IMG/VR virus record: IMGVR_UViG_3300045119_000151
Coordinates: 1 to 60,725 of that record
Reading direction: 5' to 3' (one strand)
Origin: a virus
Length of the DNA: 60,725 bases
The position numbers and the translations under genes were made by a program. Each line of letters begins with the position of its first letter. Position 1 is the stretch's first letter. Below, one piece after another: positions 6,968 through 48,158 of the stretch. The notes beneath the pieces were generated by a model. It was not told the DNA's origin. It did not search any database and saw nothing but the letters and a program-made list of their open reading frames with translations.

Positions 6968-7162
6968 ATGCCGCGCATCGCTGACTTGTTCCCCGACTTG
7001 AGCGACTTCGAGCAGTTACTGAGCGATGCGGAGTCGCAAGCGACTACTGAATGGGAGCAGACCTTCGTCGGCGATATCAACGAGAAGTATGAGCAATACG
7101 GCGCAGGCATGTATCTCACCGAGAAACAGCGCGAACACCTTGAGAAGATTGTGGAGAAGTGA
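6968..7162 (+). CDS. Hypothetical protein, 64 aa
   Basis: Acidic helical protein beginning MPRIADLFPDLSDFEQLLSD. Not recognised. It is the first gene after the divergent promoter pair. The ATG at 6968 is the first start within the transcript; sequence upstream in frame lies across the promoter and is not used. Confidence 0.65.
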   Translation: MPRIADLFPDLSDFEQLLSDAESQATTEWEQTFVGDINEKYEQYGAGMYLTEKQREHLEKIVEK

Positions 7163-7410
7163 TGGCAAGTAAACGAAATGGCAAGCTTAGCCCCCTGCAG
7201 TTGTGTATTCGGCGGTTCAAGGACGCCGGCGTCAGCGGGCGCCAATTGGGGCTCATGCTAGGCAAGAGTGAGTTCTATGTTGGGCAGCTCACCAGTAAGG
7301 GCAATCACATTCCGAACACGAACGGCATGCACCGCAAGTGGCTCGAACTTGCGCAGGCAAAGAAAGTGAAGTTAGAGGCCGAGGAATTGATTTATGGGGG
7401 TGAGGCGTGA
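7162..7410 (+). CDS. Small helix-turn-helix protein
   Basis: 82 residues. The segment CIRRFKDAGVSGRQLGLMLG then SEFYVGQLTSKGN has the spacing of a Cro/CI-like helix-turn-helix with ARQLG-type helix 2 and SEFYVGQL recognition helix. It may regulate the divergent promoters just upstream. The ATG at 7162 has GGAG 5 bp before it; a GTG one codon earlier is possible. Confidence 0.65.
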   Translation: MASKRNGKLSPLQLCIRRFKDAGVSGRQLGLMLGKSEFYVGQLTSKGNHIPNTNGMHRKWLELAQAKKVKLEAEELIYGGEA

Positions 7411-7592
7411 AAATTAAAGAGATCAGTGTATTTGCCTATGCTACAAAAGGCGAGGCACTTGATATAGCCAATCAGGCTATTGATGATCTTTGTGTGGCAT
7501 CGGTCTTTATAGTGACGGGACTTGCATCTATTGCTAAAGAGCCTGTTGTTTACATGGTGATGCCCGATCAAGATAAGGAAACCAAGCCATGA
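7407..7592 (+). CDS. Hypothetical protein, 61 aa
   Basis: Starts with GTG overlapping the previous stop (GTGA). A short mixed alpha/beta protein (ISVFAYATKGEALDIANQAI then VVYMVMPDQDKE). Not recognised. Its codon choice is more AT-rich than the neighbours. It overlaps the Acb2/Tad1-like gene by four bases. Confidence 0.55.
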   Translation: MKIKEISVFAYATKGEALDIANQAIDDLCVASVFIVTGLASIAKEPVVYMVMPDQDKETKP

Positions 7593-7810
7593 TCGGCGAT
7601 GACGCCCAAGAGCGCTATACCAGTAACGTAATGCGCCATCAATATCGACCCCTATCCGATGCTGAGAAAGGACAGATGCAGTCACTCAAAGACAAGGGTC
7701 TTGAGTTATTTCAACTGATCGACAATCTCGGTAGAAGTCGAGAAATATCCCTCGCACTCGCTAAGACCGAAGAAGCGGTGATGTGGGCGACGAAACATTT
7801 GACTAGGTAA
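7589..7810 (+). CDS. Acb2/Tad1-like cyclic-nucleotide sponge (anti-CBASS/anti-Thoeris)
   Basis: 73 residues. After a short tail, residues 17-73 match the pattern I know for small phage Acb2/Tad1-family proteins: HQYRPLSDAEKGQMQSLKDK, LELFQLIDNL, then SREISLALAKTEEAVMW (50-66) and a final basic turn. Family members are small helical proteins that form oligomers and sequester the cyclic oligonucleotides or cADPR isomers used by CBASS and Thoeris immunity; Acb2 of Pseudomonas phages and Tad1 are the named examples. The assignment rests on remembered motif pattern, with no search. It lies near the front of the accessory operon, so early expression is expected, which fits an anti-defence role. Confidence 0.78.
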   Translation: MIGDDAQERYTSNVMRHQYRPLSDAEKGQMQSLKDKGLELFQLIDNLGRSREISLALAKTEEAVMWATKHLTR

Positions 7811-7815
7811 GGGCC

Positions 7816-8163
7816 ATGAGCGAATACGACACTGCGGAAGAGATAGCCATTCGGCCACGAGGCAGCATGCATTTCGCATTCGAGCTATCTATGCCAAATA
7901 ACAACGCATGGGATGGCAAGTGGTCTGGCGAAGGTCGCTCGTATGTTCGCGTGAAAAGCTTCTCGCAAAAGGAATGGAAGACCACTGCCGCCAAATTAGT
8001 TGGCGGGCATTACTTCAATTTCGGCGACGGTTGGGGTGCTTCGGTATCTGTGCGCGTTGTCGATGCGGATACAAAGAAGAAACTCGTTAAGCAATCGGCT
8101 GGATTTTGCGGTTACGACTGGATGATTGATAGTCTGATTTTGCACGGAGTGATTAGGCGATGA
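7816..8163 (+). CDS. Conserved phage protein, 115 aa
   Basis: Contains FELSMPNNNAWDGKWSGEGR, the aromatic segment YFNFGDGWGASVSVR and GFCGYDWMIDSILH-like end (here GFCGYDWMIDSLILHG). I recall this three-block pattern from uncharacterised phage and prophage proteins. No function is known to me. It follows the Acb2/Tad1-like gene by five bases. Confidence 0.7.
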   Translation: MSEYDTAEEIAIRPRGSMHFAFELSMPNNNAWDGKWSGEGRSYVRVKSFSQKEWKTTAAKLVGGHYFNFGDGWGASVSVRVVDADTKKKLVKQSAGFCGYDWMIDSLILHGVIRR

Positions 8164-8354
8164 CCGACCACAACACTACTGAGACTAAGGCCAAACCATT
8201 CCGCGAGGACTGCACGAACTGCATGGGTACCGGCCAAGTCGCGCATGACTGCGAAGCATGCGAGGGCAAAGGCTGGGTTGATGACCCAGAGGATGGTGGC
8301 ACTATGGAGTGCCCAGAATGCGGCAACGAGCAATGTAAGGAGTGCGAAGCATGA
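8160..8354 (+). CDS. DnaJ-like zinc-finger protein, 64 aa
   Basis: Carries two CxxCxGxG-type repeats, CTNCMGTG and CEACEGKG, followed by CPECGNEQCKEC. These are the zinc-binding repeats of the DnaJ central domain, without a J domain. It probably folds around two or three zinc ions. Role unknown; possibly protein or nucleic-acid binding. Overlaps its neighbours by four bases on both sides. Confidence 0.8.
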   Translation: MTDHNTTETKAKPFREDCTNCMGTGQVAHDCEACEGKGWVDDPEDGGTMECPECGNEQCKECEA

Positions 8355-8557: not shown

Positions 8558-9164
8558 ACATCCCACTCCCGATGAAGTACTCGCGCTCGCATTCGCTAAG
8601 TATCAAGGCTGCGAATGTGTTAACAAGAATTTCGTTTCGCTTCGCAAAGAAGAGCTGTTGCGCATGCTACAAGAGTGGCGCTCTCCACCGACTAGAAAGA
8701 CTCTCATATCGGATGACGCCGATGAACTATGCCGTCGCCTCGAAGCAGAGGGAATGGTCTCGATGCGGCATACGTTTAAATGTATGTACTTGCAGATTGA
8801 AACAGTGGGAAGGCGAGCGCCTATTCATGGCATGGAATCTGTAGACGCATCAGAGTTAACGTTAAAGGCCATTCGCGAACGCTCAACCGCTTTCAATCAC
8901 TGGTTTACGCGCAACGGCGGCTACAAGGGCTATGAAGCTCAAGCGATCGATGCTTTGCTGGATTGCATCGACAAGCAATCTCTACCGCCGAAAGCGCCTC
9001 GCCCGCTCGTAACTGACATTGTCGATTTGATTCGCAACGATTCGTACGCCGTCACGTTTCAAAGCATGGGCGAATATAGATCGGCTCTAGTCCGCCATGC
9101 CGCGCAAATGCTGCTTGAATTCGAATCACAGCAATCCGTCGAGACACGGGATAGCCATGAGTGA
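8547..9164 (+). CDS. Hypothetical protein, 205 aa
   Basis: Largely helical protein beginning MTIEHPTPDEVLALAFAKYQ. The C-terminal third (ALLDCIDKQSLPPKAPRPLV, then LVRHAAQMLLEFESQQ) looks like a small helical bundle. Not recognised. It is one of the largest proteins of the accessory operon. Confidence 0.6.
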   Translation: MTIEHPTPDEVLALAFAKYQGCECVNKNFVSLRKEELLRMLQEWRSPPTRKTLISDDADELCRRLEAEGMVSMRHTFKCMYLQIETVGRRAPIHGMESVDASELTLKAIRERSTAFNHWFTRNGGYKGYEAQAIDALLDCIDKQSLPPKAPRPLVTDIVDLIRNDSYAVTFQSMGEYRSALVRHAAQMLLEFESQQSVETRDSHE

Positions 9165-9462
9165 GATTCATTCAAAGTATTTGTGGCCCGCCGCTGAGCG
9201 CATTGCCGATATCGTTTGCCTGTCGGTTGCGGAAATCCCTGACCGCGACAGCCCGGACGATCAGCCAGAGATGATGCTCGTGACCGGTGACGAACTAAAG
9301 GGCCACATCATTCGCGCATTTGAGCAATGGCGGGAAGAGAAGCAAACTGAGTCTGAGACGTCAGAGCTTCGCAATACCGCATGGAAATGCGTTGATTGCG
9401 GTAATTCTTGGATGTCAGCGCTGGGCGGAACTTGTCCGACTTGCGGCGGCGAGCTTAAATGA
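9157..9462 (+). CDS. Hypothetical zinc-ribbon protein, 101 aa
   Basis: The N-terminal part is helical and acidic (YLWPAAERIADIVCLSVAEI). The C-terminus is a zinc ribbon: WKCVDCGNSW, 13 residues, then TCPTCGGELK. Zinc ribbons of this kind commonly bind nucleic acid or protein. The start at 9157 overlaps the previous stop by eight bases. Confidence 0.65.
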   Translation: MSEIHSKYLWPAAERIADIVCLSVAEIPDRDSPDDQPEMMLVTGDELKGHIIRAFEQWREEKQTESETSELRNTAWKCVDCGNSWMSALGGTCPTCGGELK

Positions 9463-9608: not shown

Positions 9609-9971
9609 ATGGGTTGGTCGATTGGATACGATGATAAGTGGCAGCGCGATATTGGCTATGGCGTGCCTGCCTTTTGTGACCATCCTAACTGCATGACTCA
9701 TATTGATCGCGGCCTATCGCATGTATGTTGCGCTCAGAAGCCATATGGCGGCGACGATGGATGTGGTTTGTATTTCTGCGCAAAGCATCAGGACTTGCAA
9801 GGTAAGTGCGAGCGATGTGCTGACGACCAAGCTGCATTCGATCCGACGCCGGATCATCCGACTTGGATGCGATGGAAATTAACTGATGGAAGTTGGTCAG
9901 AATGGCGTGGGCAGAATCCGCACGAAGTGAATAAATTGCGAACTGCATTGGGTGAGAAAGATGGCCGCTGA
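9609..9971 (+). CDS. Conserved Cys-rich phage protein, 120 aa
   Basis: Begins MGWSIGYDDKWQRDIGYGVP, an N-terminus I recall from many phages, followed by a Cys/His cluster (CDHPNC, CCAQKP, CGLYFCAKHQ, CERC) that should hold two zinc ions. The C-terminal third is WxxWK-rich and uncharged by comparison. Function unknown. Confidence 0.72.
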   Translation: MGWSIGYDDKWQRDIGYGVPAFCDHPNCMTHIDRGLSHVCCAQKPYGGDDGCGLYFCAKHQDLQGKCERCADDQAAFDPTPDHPTWMRWKLTDGSWSEWRGQNPHEVNKLRTALGEKDGR

Positions 9972-37534: not shown

Positions 37535-38995
37535 TTAAACCACCTCTACTGTTGAAACATCCAAATCCGACAAAGACGCACCCGTGTTCAATATATGAGC
37601 AATCAATCCATCGCCGTACACTTCGATCTCGATCTCATCACCGAGAAACTTAATCAGGTCCATGAACTCTTGCGCTTGCGACACCATCCACGGATGACAC
37701 TTAAACACTCTACCGCCGCAGGTCACGTCGATGACCATCGCGCCATCGTTCTCTGGTTGTTTGTACGCATGATGCGCATCGTCGCTCAGGCATGAGTCGA
37801 AGCCATACAGATGAAATTTCCTGAATCCAAGCATACGAAGCAGTGGGATAGCTCGCAGCATGACGCTTGATCCACCGGGGATGGCGTGGTAAATCTCATA
37901 CCGAGCGTTTAGTTCCTCGCGTGCATTCTCCATTGTGGTATGCCACAGCAGAGTGCGATCATGCGGCAATCCTTTCATCACTTCTGGATGAACTTGACTT
38001 GCCATCAAGTATTTGCATTCAGGAACCACGGGGCTGACGAAGCGCTTATTAAACTCACGCGCGTCGACCATGATCTGCGCCGAGGGAGTGAGTCCGCGAT
38101 CTAAACACCAATTGTAGGTGCCGTTGGTCGTGATGAGTTTAACGCCTTCACTTCGATGCGCCTTGATCGCTTCTTCAAATCCCGACAGACTCGGACCACC
38201 GCCAAGGATCATAACCTCCGTATCGTTGGTCAAATGCGGGGCCACTTGATTCCATGCCAAGTCGGGGCCAGCCGCATCCACCGCGATATTCGCGCGGACG
38301 TTATTCAGGATTTCATCCTCAGTCGTATTCAGTGCACCCGCATTGACGAAGCTTTCGCCGGACTGCCACGCCGTCACATAGAACAGGCAGTGAGTGCCTT
38401 CGTCGCGCGACCAATGGACAACGCAATCTAAGTCTTGCAGCTTCTTGAGCCACCAGCTGTACGGATGCACGGACAGGTGCAACGGCTGGCCTATCAGTAC
38501 GCCGAGACTGTCTTCCTGGCAACTGATCTGAAAAAATACATGCTGAGAAGCCAGCAGAATGTTTTTCAGCACGACATCGACTTCCGCTGGTGGAAGGTGC
38601 TCCATAACATCGGTGCAATACCCGTAACTCGCAGTGTAAGGGCACGGCTTGTTTAGATCGTGCGAAGTAAACCGCAGCGCATGCGCCTGAGTCTGAAGCG
38701 CCTCGCGAACTTCTGGATCAAGACAGTTCTCAGCGAAATCGAGCATCTCGACGCGCAGGCCACCGAACAGCGCGAGCATCAATGCGCCGCGGCCGGTGCC
38801 GGTTCCAAAGTCTATGATCGACGATCCAGCCTTGGGTTGCGCTTGCGATAAGAACAGCGGTGCCGCGCCTTCGCCCGGCGCCACGCCACGGTACGCAGCA
38901 TGATTCCACATCTGCTCATACTTGGCTTGCTCGATGGTTCTAACCTTCACCACTGGCGCAAACCCGGTACACCCAACATCTGTCAAACCCAGCAT
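37535..38995 (-). CDS. SAM methyltransferase fused to DUF115/MptE-like domain
   Basis: 486 residues. Residues about 55-210 form a class I methyltransferase: motif I IIDFGTGTGRGALMLALFG, then VEMLDFAENC and CTDVMEHLPPAEVDVVL. Residues about 255-460 match DUF115 (6-hydroxymethylpterin pyrophosphokinase-like, also in motility-linked glycosyltransferases): VMILGGGPSLSGFEEAIKAH, ITTNGTYNWCLDRGLTPSAQ, MVDAREFNKRF. It lies within virion genes, so it may modify a virion surface glycan, DNA or a small molecule. Activity inferred from motifs; substrate unknown. Confidence 0.8.
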   Translation of the reverse strand: MLGLTDVGCTGFAPVVKVRTIEQAKYEQMWNHAAYRGVAPGEGAAPLFLSQAQPKAGSSIIDFGTGTGRGALMLALFGGLRVEMLDFAENCLDPEVREALQTQAHALRFTSHDLNKPCPYTASYGYCTDVMEHLPPAEVDVVLKNILLASQHVFFQISCQEDSLGVLIGQPLHLSVHPYSWWLKKLQDLDCVVHWSRDEGTHCLFYVTAWQSGESFVNAGALNTTEDEILNNVRANIAVDAAGPDLAWNQVAPHLTNDTEVMILGGGPSLSGFEEAIKAHRSEGVKLITTNGTYNWCLDRGLTPSAQIMVDAREFNKRFVSPVVPECKYLMASQVHPEVMKGLPHDRTLLWHTTMENAREELNARYEIYHAIPGGSSVMLRAIPLLRMLGFRKFHLYGFDSCLSDDAHHAYKQPENDGAMVIDVTCGGRVFKCHPWMVSQAQEFMDLIKFLGDEIEIEVYGDGLIAHILNTGASLSDLDVSTVEVV

Positions 38996-44196: not shown

Positions 44197-44688
44197 TTAA
44201 ACGAACGCAATCGCCGCGAGCGGATCGGGAACGATGCCGCCCAACTCTAAATCTTTCTGCACGATGAACTGTACGACGCCGTCGCCATACGGAACTTCGA
44301 AGCGCTCGGCACCGCCGAACTTCGGTACGCGCACATAGTCGCCGCGCTTAACCCACGCGCCCTCCGGCCATTCCTGACCGGTGTTGCGATTCTTAAAAGC
44401 GAGCGGACCGTAAGAAAGAACCTTCGCGACTTGCGTATTGGCTTGAATGGTCGCGATGACTTCATCTGGAAGGACGAAGTTCGACTTGCCGACCGTGCGC
44501 TTGGCGACGCGAATTTGCATCAGCACGAGCGAGCCGAGCGGGAGGTAATTCGGATCGACTTTCGGAAACGCTTCTTCAAGCGTCTGATTGATCGCCGCAA
44601 TCGGCGCGAAACTCGCGCTGGGCGAACCCTTCAGCGGATTAGCGGCTGCTAATTGTCTTGCCAAACCAACCGATTCAATTCTGCTCAT
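44197..44688 (-). CDS. GroES-like (Cpn10-like) protein
   Basis: 163 residues. LPLGSLVLMQIRVAKRTVGK, FVLPDEVIAT, then AKVLSYGPLAFKNRNTGQEW, VKRGDYVRVPKFGGAERFEV and GGIVPDP match the GroES beta-barrel order, with the strand that follows the mobile loop. Like T4 gp31-type proteins it may assist coat folding through host GroEL. It precedes the scaffold gene. Function inferred. Confidence 0.78.
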   Translation of the reverse strand: MSRIESVGLARQLAAANPLKGSPSASFAPIAAINQTLEEAFPKVDPNYLPLGSLVLMQIRVAKRTVGKSNFVLPDEVIATIQANTQVAKVLSYGPLAFKNRNTGQEWPEGAWVKRGDYVRVPKFGGAERFEVPYGDGVVQFIVQKDLELGGIVPDPLAAIAFV

Positions 44689-45109: not shown

Positions 45110-45559
45110 TCAAGGTTGAAATTTCATTGCAGCCAATGCCGCTTTCGATTGCCGCTCATGTCGCTCGATCCACATCATCGCCTCATCAAGCTTCGTTTGC
45201 GCAATCGACAGTTCACGCGATGTCGATGCGCCAAATCTACCAATCGACGAAGTTAAGCCCGACGCGCGCGATGCAACCGTATCAACAGTGACACTGTTAT
45301 TGGGTTGAGTTGACATTGGAATTGCGCTCGGCGCGTCGGTGTTCGGTGGAGCAGTTGCCTGCTCTGAAGTGGCGGTCTGTTTCGGTGGCTCATCCGCCAA
45401 CACCAACCCGTTCGCACTCATGCGCTCGCCGGTCATCGTGTTGAACGTCTCACCAATTTTATTCACGAAGGTATCTTTCGCATGACTCCACTCGAACCCA
45501 TCGGGGATCGCCAATTTACGATGGGCATGCGTTGCGCCTTCGCTTGCTGAATTGCTCAC
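45110..45559 (-). CDS. Head-region protein with Acb2/Tad1-like C-terminal signature, 149 aa
   Basis: N-terminal half FEWSHAKDTFVNKIGETFNT with Thr/Pro-rich linker. Residues 114-130, SRELSIAQTKLDEAMMW, match the C-terminal signature of Acb2/Tad1-like proteins and of the gene at 7589, which reads SREISLALAKTEEAVMW. Here it is fused to an unrelated N-terminus and sits between portal and scaffold genes. I infer a second ligand-binding or oligomerising helix pair; role unknown. Confidence 0.6.
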   Translation of the reverse strand: MSNSASEGATHAHRKLAIPDGFEWSHAKDTFVNKIGETFNTMTGERMSANGLVLADEPPKQTATSEQATAPPNTDAPSAIPMSTQPNNSVTVDTVASRASGLTSSIGRFGASTSRELSIAQTKLDEAMMWIERHERQSKAALAAMKFQP

Positions 45560-45560
45560 T

Positions 45561-48158
45561 TCACTCTCCTGGGTTAATGCCGGTGCCAGTCGATACCGTA
45601 GATCGATGACCCGTCAGTGTTTCTGCTGTTGAGATGGCCATTGCCGTGTCGTTGTCGGCGGTGTTGATTTCTAACTTGGTTTGATTATCGAGCGCAGCGC
45701 GCTGCATGTCGCCCTGCTCCTTCATTTGCGCGACATCCACATCGACAGCACGATCCGCCTGCTTGTTCTTATCGTCGCGCTGCCCATCGATCGCGCGCAA
45801 CTGCAATTCCTTCATGCGCTGCGCCACGTCGGCGGACTTGATCTGTGCTTGCCCATGCTGCCTCGTCTGCTCTAAAGCCTGCTGATTCTTTCCACGGAGA
45901 GTCTCGACCGCCGTCGCCGCCTGCACAGCGGGATCTTGCGGCTGCATCGACTGCTGCAACTGCTGAACCATCTGGAACGCCTTGGCGATGATTGGCGGCA
46001 GACTCTTGAATGCTTCCGCCGCCTCATCGATAGCCAAGCCCGACGCCACCGCCATGACCTTATCGACCTCACGCCGCGTGTCGGCGTCCTTGAATTTCAG
46101 CATCTCCGCGAAGTCCTGATCCACCGCTGAACTTGCATGCTCATACACGCGAGACGCATACCACAGCGTCATGTGCTCAATCAAATGCTGCAAGATCGCC
46201 GGTATAAACTTGCCCATCACCATCGGCATCATCCCAAAGAACGGCGATTGCATGTAGTCCAAGTGTGCTTGGATGTGCGCTAAGTGATCCTGCTCCGGGA
46301 ATGCCGAGATCGGACGACCCAAGGTCGCCGCGACGTTCTCATTCACGGCGTTCAGTTCATGCGGCTTGGTCTGCGGTGCGAGCAGTTTCTCTGGATGCGC
46401 GATCTTAAGCCGCTCCAAGAGCAGCATCTCGACCTCGCGCGCGTTGTACAATTCCGGGTGCGCATCAGACCGCTGTGACACAACCTGTATTTGCGCAAAC
46501 CGCTGTACCTCACTGAAAATACGCGGATCGGCGACCGGGATCACATCCATCGGCCCTTGGTAGTCCTCACGCATCGCGAGCAGTTCGCCCGTCTCGTCGA
46601 ATATCTGCTTGTCCGTCACATACATCTTGTTGATGCGATGAAGCACGAGCAACGTGCGCTCCATCGCCGAATACAGTCTCCCGTGGATCGCCGATAACAC
46701 GGCCATGCCCTGTTCGATCAGCGCGAGTGTCGTACCGACCGGCATGTTCGGATGCTGCTCGGCTAAGTCCTCGAACGTCGTGCGCACCACATCCTTGCCG
46801 GCATCGACCAAGAATCCGAGCAACTGATACAGCACCGTCGACGTCGGGTTGTACGGGATCGCCATAATCAACTTGCGGATGTCATCGGCGCCGGGACCGC
46901 CTTCGAGTTCCGTCACTTGCATCGGCTGCGGCGAAACGCTTTGTCCGCCCTGCACACTGCCCTTCAATTTCAGCATCGCCGGGAAGTTGTTCACATGCGC
47001 CGAGTCAAGCAGCGCACGCAGCGCACCAGTCGCCGCCGCGGGCAAGCCCGCCATCATCTGCGGCAGTCCTATCGCCATCGCACCGCGCCACGGCACGAAC
47101 GGCCACTCAACCACCCACGCCATCGGCTCAATCAGCTTGTCGTCTTTCTCCCAGTTGCGCACGATGCCGAGCACCTTCTTGGTCATCGAGCACAGGCGCA
47201 CGATGTATGGCCGCACTTCGTCATCGGCCTCGTCATCGAACTCCGAGAAATCCTGCATGATCTCGACTTCGTACATGCGCCGCACGCCGTCTTTGTTGTA
47301 TACGTCGTCGTCTTTGCCTTCGACGCGGTCAGTCGCTTTTTGCGCCAGCGTTTTCTCTGGCGGCATGCTACCGACACCAAGCACGCGATCTTCCGTGTAG
47401 ATTTCATCGCGTACGCGCTTATCGAATTCCATCCGCGTGATGTCTTCGATGAACGTGCGCCGCTCAGCCGAATAAAAATCCGCTGCCGCTGCCGGAATGA
47501 TCATGAAGTCAACCGGGACGAACGACGCCTCCGGACGCTTCTTGCCGGGATTCCATACCCAGCGCTGATACTGCACACCGCCTAGCGGCACTTGCGTGAG
47601 CAATTGCTCAAGCGTCGCGCGAAACTCGGGAATCTGGCGCGTGAGCTGCCAGTTCATATGCTTGGTCTTGCGCCGCGCCTTCGCTAACCGCTCCTTCGTC
47701 GGATCACCCGGAATAAAATCCTTAGCCGGCCCACCGGGCGGCATAATTTCTTTGATCGCGCGCGCTTCGAAGTCCACGCACGCTTGCGTGAGCATCGGAT
47801 GCACTGTCTTGCTCGCGCCTTGAAAACTTGCGCCACCCGGCGCATCGCCGCCCATGCCAGTGCGGCGGATACCGTCCTCGTACTGCTTATCGCGCGGCTC
47901 GCGCGCCTTGATGTCGTACTCGATGGACTCGCACAGGTCCGATGCGAACGACCCGAGAAACGACTGCGTGAACGCCGTATTACCCAGCAGTAGGTTATCG
48001 TAGAACGAGGAGTCGCCCTCCGTTGCTTCGTCCTCGCCGGTCTTGACGATAGCTCCACCATCCGGCGTGTCCTCGACATCGGTACGCTCCGGCTCTAACT
48101 CCAGCACATCACCGAGTTCGGATTGCGACTCGTCAGCAGCGTTCGGTGTGTCAGCCAT
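45561..48158 (-). CDS. Portal protein
   Basis: 865 residues. Acidic N-terminus, then the portal pattern GGASFQGASKTVHPMLTQAC, VDFEARAIKEIMPPGGPAKDF, and PLGGVQYQRWVWNPGKKRPE, continuing through long helical crown/wing regions and a Gln-rich C-terminus (QQLQQSMQPQDPAVQAATAV). Portal function: dodecameric DNA entry ring. Large size and acidic ends are seen in podovirus-like portals. Between the 97-aa gene and the 149-aa gene. Confidence 0.9.
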   Translation of the reverse strand: MADTPNAADESQSELGDVLELEPERTDVEDTPDGGAIVKTGEDEATEGDSSFYDNLLLGNTAFTQSFLGSFASDLCESIEYDIKAREPRDKQYEDGIRRTGMGGDAPGGASFQGASKTVHPMLTQACVDFEARAIKEIMPPGGPAKDFIPGDPTKERLAKARRKTKHMNWQLTRQIPEFRATLEQLLTQVPLGGVQYQRWVWNPGKKRPEASFVPVDFMIIPAAAADFYSAERRTFIEDITRMEFDKRVRDEIYTEDRVLGVGSMPPEKTLAQKATDRVEGKDDDVYNKDGVRRMYEVEIMQDFSEFDDEADDEVRPYIVRLCSMTKKVLGIVRNWEKDDKLIEPMAWVVEWPFVPWRGAMAIGLPQMMAGLPAAATGALRALLDSAHVNNFPAMLKLKGSVQGGQSVSPQPMQVTELEGGPGADDIRKLIMAIPYNPTSTVLYQLLGFLVDAGKDVVRTTFEDLAEQHPNMPVGTTLALIEQGMAVLSAIHGRLYSAMERTLLVLHRINKMYVTDKQIFDETGELLAMREDYQGPMDVIPVADPRIFSEVQRFAQIQVVSQRSDAHPELYNAREVEMLLLERLKIAHPEKLLAPQTKPHELNAVNENVAATLGRPISAFPEQDHLAHIQAHLDYMQSPFFGMMPMVMGKFIPAILQHLIEHMTLWYASRVYEHASSAVDQDFAEMLKFKDADTRREVDKVMAVASGLAIDEAAEAFKSLPPIIAKAFQMVQQLQQSMQPQDPAVQAATAVETLRGKNQQALEQTRQHGQAQIKSADVAQRMKELQLRAIDGQRDDKNKQADRAVDVDVAQMKEQGDMQRAALDNQTKLEINTADNDTAMAISTAETLTGHRSTVSTGTGINPGE

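Follow-up and report, generated by a model that had tools for sequence, protein, structure and literature searches.

Proteins of the Acb2/Tad1 family soak up the small cyclic molecules that bacteria use as an anti-phage alarm. A short open reading frame (ORF) at positions 7589 to 7810 (+) of a viral contig raises the question of whether its phage makes a sponge of this kind. The window analyzed is the entire contig of 60,725 bases. The ORF begins with ATG and encodes a 73-aa protein, in which we find all three of the motifs (HQYRPLSDAEK, LIDNL, and SREISLALAKTEEAVMW) from which the first-pass annotation had argued for an Acb2/Tad1-like sponge.

The family assignment is most directly addressed by profile searches. 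Residues 19 to 73 of the protein match positions 2 to 58 of the 58-position Pfam profile PF24729 (Acb2/Tad1 hairpin) with an E value of 5.6e-18 and a whole-hairpin score of 65.3 bits, against a curated cutoff of 27 bits. This is the sole full-length PF24729 match in the 60.7-kb record. When a profile made from the protein and 24 relatives was compared with the whole PDB, only Acb2/Tad1 chains were retrieved: Acb2 homolog 43 (9ptq), T4 Vs.4 (7uq2), PaP2 p26 (8ixz and 8h2j), and Tad1 (7uav, 8kbe, 8kbg, and 8kbh). A profile is required for this result, since a single-sequence phmmer search of the PDB gave no real match. The protein has no match in NCBIfam or PADLOC, and its PHROG matches have no assigned function except for one weak HTH match.

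The AlphaFold2 model (22 sequences) shows the two long antiparallel helices typical of the family. Residues 24–45 and 51–72 form a two-helix hairpin with pLDDT values of about 96–98 over most of its length, in agreement with the earlier description of the protein as helical. Residues 1–18 have pLDDT values of 50–63 and adopt neither helix nor strand in the monomer model; the short helix that precedes the hairpin in Acb2 is therefore not seen in this poorly modeled stretch. The first six Foldseek ranks are occupied by T4 Vs.4 and Pseudomonas Acb2, with unrelated helical proteins and Tad1 lower. VIA-align superimposes the model on 7uq2 with a Z of 6.8 (2.3 Å over 59 residues) and on 8h2x with a Z of 6.3 (1.8 Å over 58 residues), but Z values of 6–7 are no higher than those for unrelated helical hairpins and are not taken as proof, so the case for family membership rests on sequence rather than on fold. 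Together, a PF24729 match far above the cutoff, a PDB profile search that finds the family only, and a predicted fold nearest to T4 Vs.4 and PaP2 Acb2 bear out the Acb2/Tad1-like identity first proposed. Judged from its sequence, the protein is a clear, and ordinary, member of an already known family, and the assignment itself is not where the interest lies.

Among solved members, the best fold match is T4 Acb2 (Vs.4, 7uq2), whose helix 2 segment AKTKLKEASMW matches the signature of the 73-aa protein. T4 Acb2 differs in having Asp61 without the Arg of SRE, Phe82 where the family of the 73-aa protein has Thr72, and Thr68 where the 73-aa protein has Ala58. The Acb2 proteins of PaMx33 and PaP2 (8h2j, 8h2x, and 8ixz) are likewise small helical hairpins made from a single phage gene, with R67 and the Y11/K26 spacing in common with the 73-aa protein. 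However, they are only 15%–21% identical to it in structure alignments, have a chain of 93 aa in which the region between the helices is longer, and carry GKT in helix 2 where the 73-aa protein has LAK. A much closer relative is the uncharacterized Acb2-like gp37 of Sinorhizobium phage Aussie (58% identity), with an NNVMRHxYR N-terminal motif and a similar C-terminal end. The gp37 gene lies between head-tail adaptor and stopper, whereas the gene studied here is in a nonstructural operon.

Residues Y11 and K26 of PaMx33 Acb2, and also R67, are ligand residues of that protein. The 73-aa protein has a Tyr with a Lys 15 residues on, as expected of an Acb2 protein, and this spacing (Y19/K34) is identical to that of T4 Acb2 (Y8/K23) and PaMx33 Acb2 (Y11/K26). 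R51 aligns with PaMx33 R67. Eight positions, including K34, are invariant in 25 relatives (R16, L22, K34, A56, E61, A63, M65, and W66). In T4 Acb2, both dinucleotide binding and function are lost when the corresponding Tyr is mutated to Ala (Y8A; PMC12657218).

The departure from this pattern is at residue 58, which corresponds to T68 of T4 Acb2. Of 98 relatives, most of them collected through the pattern EEAVMWA, 88 have Thr in this column, and the others have Glu (6), Ala (2), Asp (1), or Pro (1). Thr is also present in the solved members found by the PDB profile search. Bas35 is a T4-like phage that has been discussed among those resistant to Panoptes, and its T68M change is described as reducing T4 Acb2 binding (PMC12657230). 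Given that T4 Acb2 is weakened when this Thr becomes Met, the Ala at position 58 leads us to expect that the trinucleotide site is usable and that the dinucleotide site is possibly weaker. In seven other loci (L020, L067, L071–L073, L075, and L099), Asp or Glu replaces the helix 2 Thr with the other motifs intact; to judge by these residues, such relatives may form a ligand-specificity subgroup.

With its family membership, hairpin fold, and conserved ligand residues, the 73-aa protein very probably serves as an Acb2-type sponge, a hexamer that binds CBASS cyclic oligonucleotides and blocks CBASS. If it behaves as the family does, then signaling would be blocked in this phage, as the first-pass annotation had proposed. 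During infection, the chains would fold into helical hairpins and assemble as a hexamer like that of solved Acb2. The pockets between chains, with Y19 and K34, would hold cyclic dinucleotides, and the trimer interfaces, with R51, would hold cyclic trinucleotides. The CBASS second messenger would thereby be removed, rather than degraded, before the killing effector switches on. The dinucleotide pocket would be the weaker of the two sites as a consequence of Ala58. CD-NTases, the CBASS synthases (PF18144), are encoded in 17 of the 149 Phenylobacterium-family genomes and in eight of 29 genomes holding an Acb2 locus, two proportions that are not read as enrichment since the genome sets differ in taxonomy. 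The presence of PF18144 in such genomes means that there is a target for the sponge to inhibit.

A more specific reading, which we consider possible but rather unlikely, is that Ala58 marks a family member whose weakened dinucleotide pocket is kept because it prefers cyclic trinucleotides or because it evades a Panoptes guard. In the latter case, a weaker dinucleotide sponge would avoid tripping the host guard that punishes phages carrying Acb2. The predominance of Thr at this column, the retention of R51, and the lower binding reported for T68M of Bas35 at the same column (PMC12657230) are all consistent with this idea. However, Ala is a milder change than Met, and the Glu, Ala, Asp, and Pro residues of relatives with otherwise intact motifs indicate that change here is tolerated.

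The Acb2-type gene is closely packed with its neighbors (see the table). Its start codon overlaps the stop codon of the preceding gene (ATGA, a 4-base overlap with 7407..7592), which is itself overlapped at its start by 7159..7410. A Shine-Dalgarno-like AAGGA lies ∼10 bases 5′ of the start, and five bases separate the stop codon from the start of the next gene. These overlaps and the short gap place the gene in a tight plus-strand operon of small genes.

Features of the window discussed in the text
Feature	Coordinates	Strand	Evidence
Upstream operon gene, 83 aa	7159..7410	+	No match in Pfam, PHROG, NCBIfam, or PADLOC
Upstream operon gene, 61 aa	7407..7592	+	Sub-threshold SpoVG match only
Acb2-family hairpin gene, intact, 73 aa	7589..7810	+	PF24729, PDB profile matches, AlphaFold2 model, Foldseek
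N-terminal motif NVMRHQYR, residues 13–20, includes Y19	7625..7648	+	Alignment with relatives, PaMx33 and T4 Acb2
Helix 2 signature SREISLALAKTEEAVMW, residues 50–66, includes R51 and Ala58	7736..7786	+	Alignment with relatives
Downstream operon gene, 115 aa	7816..8163	+	43%–48% identical hypothetical proteins in Salmonella, Erwinia, and Pantoea phages
ORF, 149 aa, with diverged C-terminal Acb2 hairpin (residues about 92–135)	45110..45559	-	PF24729, A1 profile, slot shared with L003 and L007
Portal-type gene, 865 aa, preceding the diverged hairpin gene	45561..48158	-	47%–49% identical to its positional counterparts in L003 and L007

The suggestion that the neighboring genes (starts given as 7162, 7407, and 7816) encode further anti-defense proteins found no support. 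Searches of Pfam (over the cutoff), PHROG, and PADLOC gave no match to any of the three, and no relatives of the first were found in phage records. Relatives of the third occur in three phages of enterobacteria; in two of these, the gene lies among other small unannotated genes. By these sequence comparisons, nothing supports or excludes an anti-defense role for the three genes. The same operon also encodes two small Cys-rich, zinc-ribbon-like proteins (8160–8354 and 9097–9462, +), the first of which weakly resembles the zinc domains of anti-TRAP and Q-like antiterminators. At 9609–9971 (+) is a 120-aa protein of PHROG 18518 (3e-38), a group with no assigned function.

We collected 21 related viral loci at 43%–65% identity to the 73-aa protein and 74 hairpin loci in bacterial genomes, mostly of Alphaproteobacteria. 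Phages with a relative include one of Sinorhizobium and, at greater distance, Paenibacillus phages. One locus (49% identity) comes from Dunaliella viridis virus SI2 (L026), which is labeled a green-alga virus and classed as a tailed phage; its host is probably a bacterium that lives with the alga. In a tree of 100 hairpins, which is mostly unresolved and was used only for the nearest rows, these rows are L003 and two loci from Caulobacteraceae, L029 and L030. The major head protein shares 80% identity with those of Caulobacter phages GB2A, RW, RLK, and KcrB (62 kb), and the gene order is that of RLK. On these sequence grounds, we assign the phage to the group of RLK, RW, KcrB, and GB2A. The head-protein identity, the RLK gene order, and the two nearest Caulobacteraceae hairpins make a Caulobacteraceae host likely. 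The late region also encodes a 486-aa protein (37535–38995, -) that weakly matches methyltransferases and contains a domain like MptE, a 6-hydroxymethylpterin diphosphokinase (3e-16), which is odd for a phage.

What is new here is a second, diverged hairpin directly after the portal gene. A second PF24729 match (45158–45220, -) scores 28.0 bits against the cutoff of 27 (E = 2.6e-6), and the 149-aa protein containing it scores 27.8 bits with the A1 profile, compared with 8.8 bits for the best of 2000 shuffles. The ORF starts one base after the portal-type gene; in MW202545, the gene in the portal position is annotated as a "head to tail connecting protein." A full Acb2 occupies this post-portal slot in the related viral contigs L003 and L007, where the hairpin matches begin 22–37 bases past the portal gene; both contigs share portal, co-chaperonin-like, and head genes with this phage at 30%–80% identity. 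Reading and HMM searches of the post-portal slot of RLK, HTVC023P, and CRP-901 revealed no hairpin; in RLK the slot holds an unrelated 146-aa protein. A second copy over the cutoff is present in none of the 26 other phage records with the family, several of which are fragments, and tblastn searches of phages and viral contigs found no relatives of the 149-aa ORF. At 44197–44688 (-) is the positional counterpart of the GroES-like co-chaperonin gene of MW202545 and CRP-901, itself without a Pfam match.

The 149-aa protein keeps SRELSIAQTKLDEAMMW, Thr included, and has lost NVMRHQYR together with its ligand Tyr. Because of this N-terminal loss, the sequence makes it unlikely that the protein can act alone as a sponge. 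Helices span residues 92–108 and 115–146 of its model, with pLDDT values of 81–92 for the block, an outcome favored by the Acb2-sequence alignment used. The N-terminal part is long and mostly disordered. The simplest reading of these observations is that the post-portal slot is an accessory-gene site, occupied by an intact Acb2 in some sisters and by a diverged or fused remnant here, with the working copy at 7589. This phage would then retain, in this slot, a hairpin gene that has decayed or been repurposed. Alternatively, the 149-aa protein could be a working late-stage or virion-linked partner that may co-assemble with, localize, or modulate the sponge encoded at 7589. We consider this highly improbable, but if it is true, then one phage runs two hairpin proteins from different expression modules.

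Among alphaproteobacterial phages, the hairpin gene is often a neighbor of head genes. For 23 of 74 genome loci and five of 24 viral loci, no more than 250 bases separate the hairpin gene from a same-strand gene for a portal, head-tail adaptor, head protease, minor head protein, or terminase, and head-adjacent hairpin loci occur in Mu-like and other phage types. The corresponding count within 5 kb (34 of 74) is not read as enrichment, because a gene picked at random from a phage of 40 kb is often that near. The 250-base counts could mean that the hairpin proteins of the alphaproteobacterial branch are virion or head-assembly parts, instead of or besides being sponges. We find this very doubtful, since RLK and MW202545, whose major head proteins are 73%–80% identical to that of this phage, carry no hairpin anywhere in their records, which indicates that virions of this type can do without it. 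It is likewise missing throughout the records of CRP-901 and HTVC023P, which are more distant. Moreover, the gene changes location often (26 times on a poorly resolved tree), and the copy at 7589–7810 sits outside the head genes. Since close relatives do without the hairpin, a role as a virion component seems unlikely, and the head-gene proximity may plausibly be explained by co-expression with capsid proteins.

Least probable of all is a Tad1-type anti-Thoeris protein that captures gcADPR: the common hairpin domain retrieves Tad1 structures too, and cbTad1 (7uav, 8kbe, and 8smd) shares the SRE...EEA.MW signature in helix 2, but Tad1 has an N-terminal antiparallel β-sheet ahead of the hairpin (PMC12043709), whereas only 18 residues, strandless in the model, precede the hairpin here, and Foldseek places Tad1 below Acb2. 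Because this β-sheet is absent from the model, the 73-aa protein is best described as Acb2-like rather than Tad1-like.

As an Acb2-type protein, the product of 7589–7810 would be a CBASS-type sponge from the Caulobacter-phage lineage, a setting that offers tractable hosts. What makes the locus interesting is the Ala58 change, together with the two copies and their link to the head module. Ala58 provides a direct test of whether pocket residues trade binding against detection by the host. Members of the alphaproteobacterial branch, being often adjacent to head genes, would be made with the capsid proteins, which predicts a late timing.
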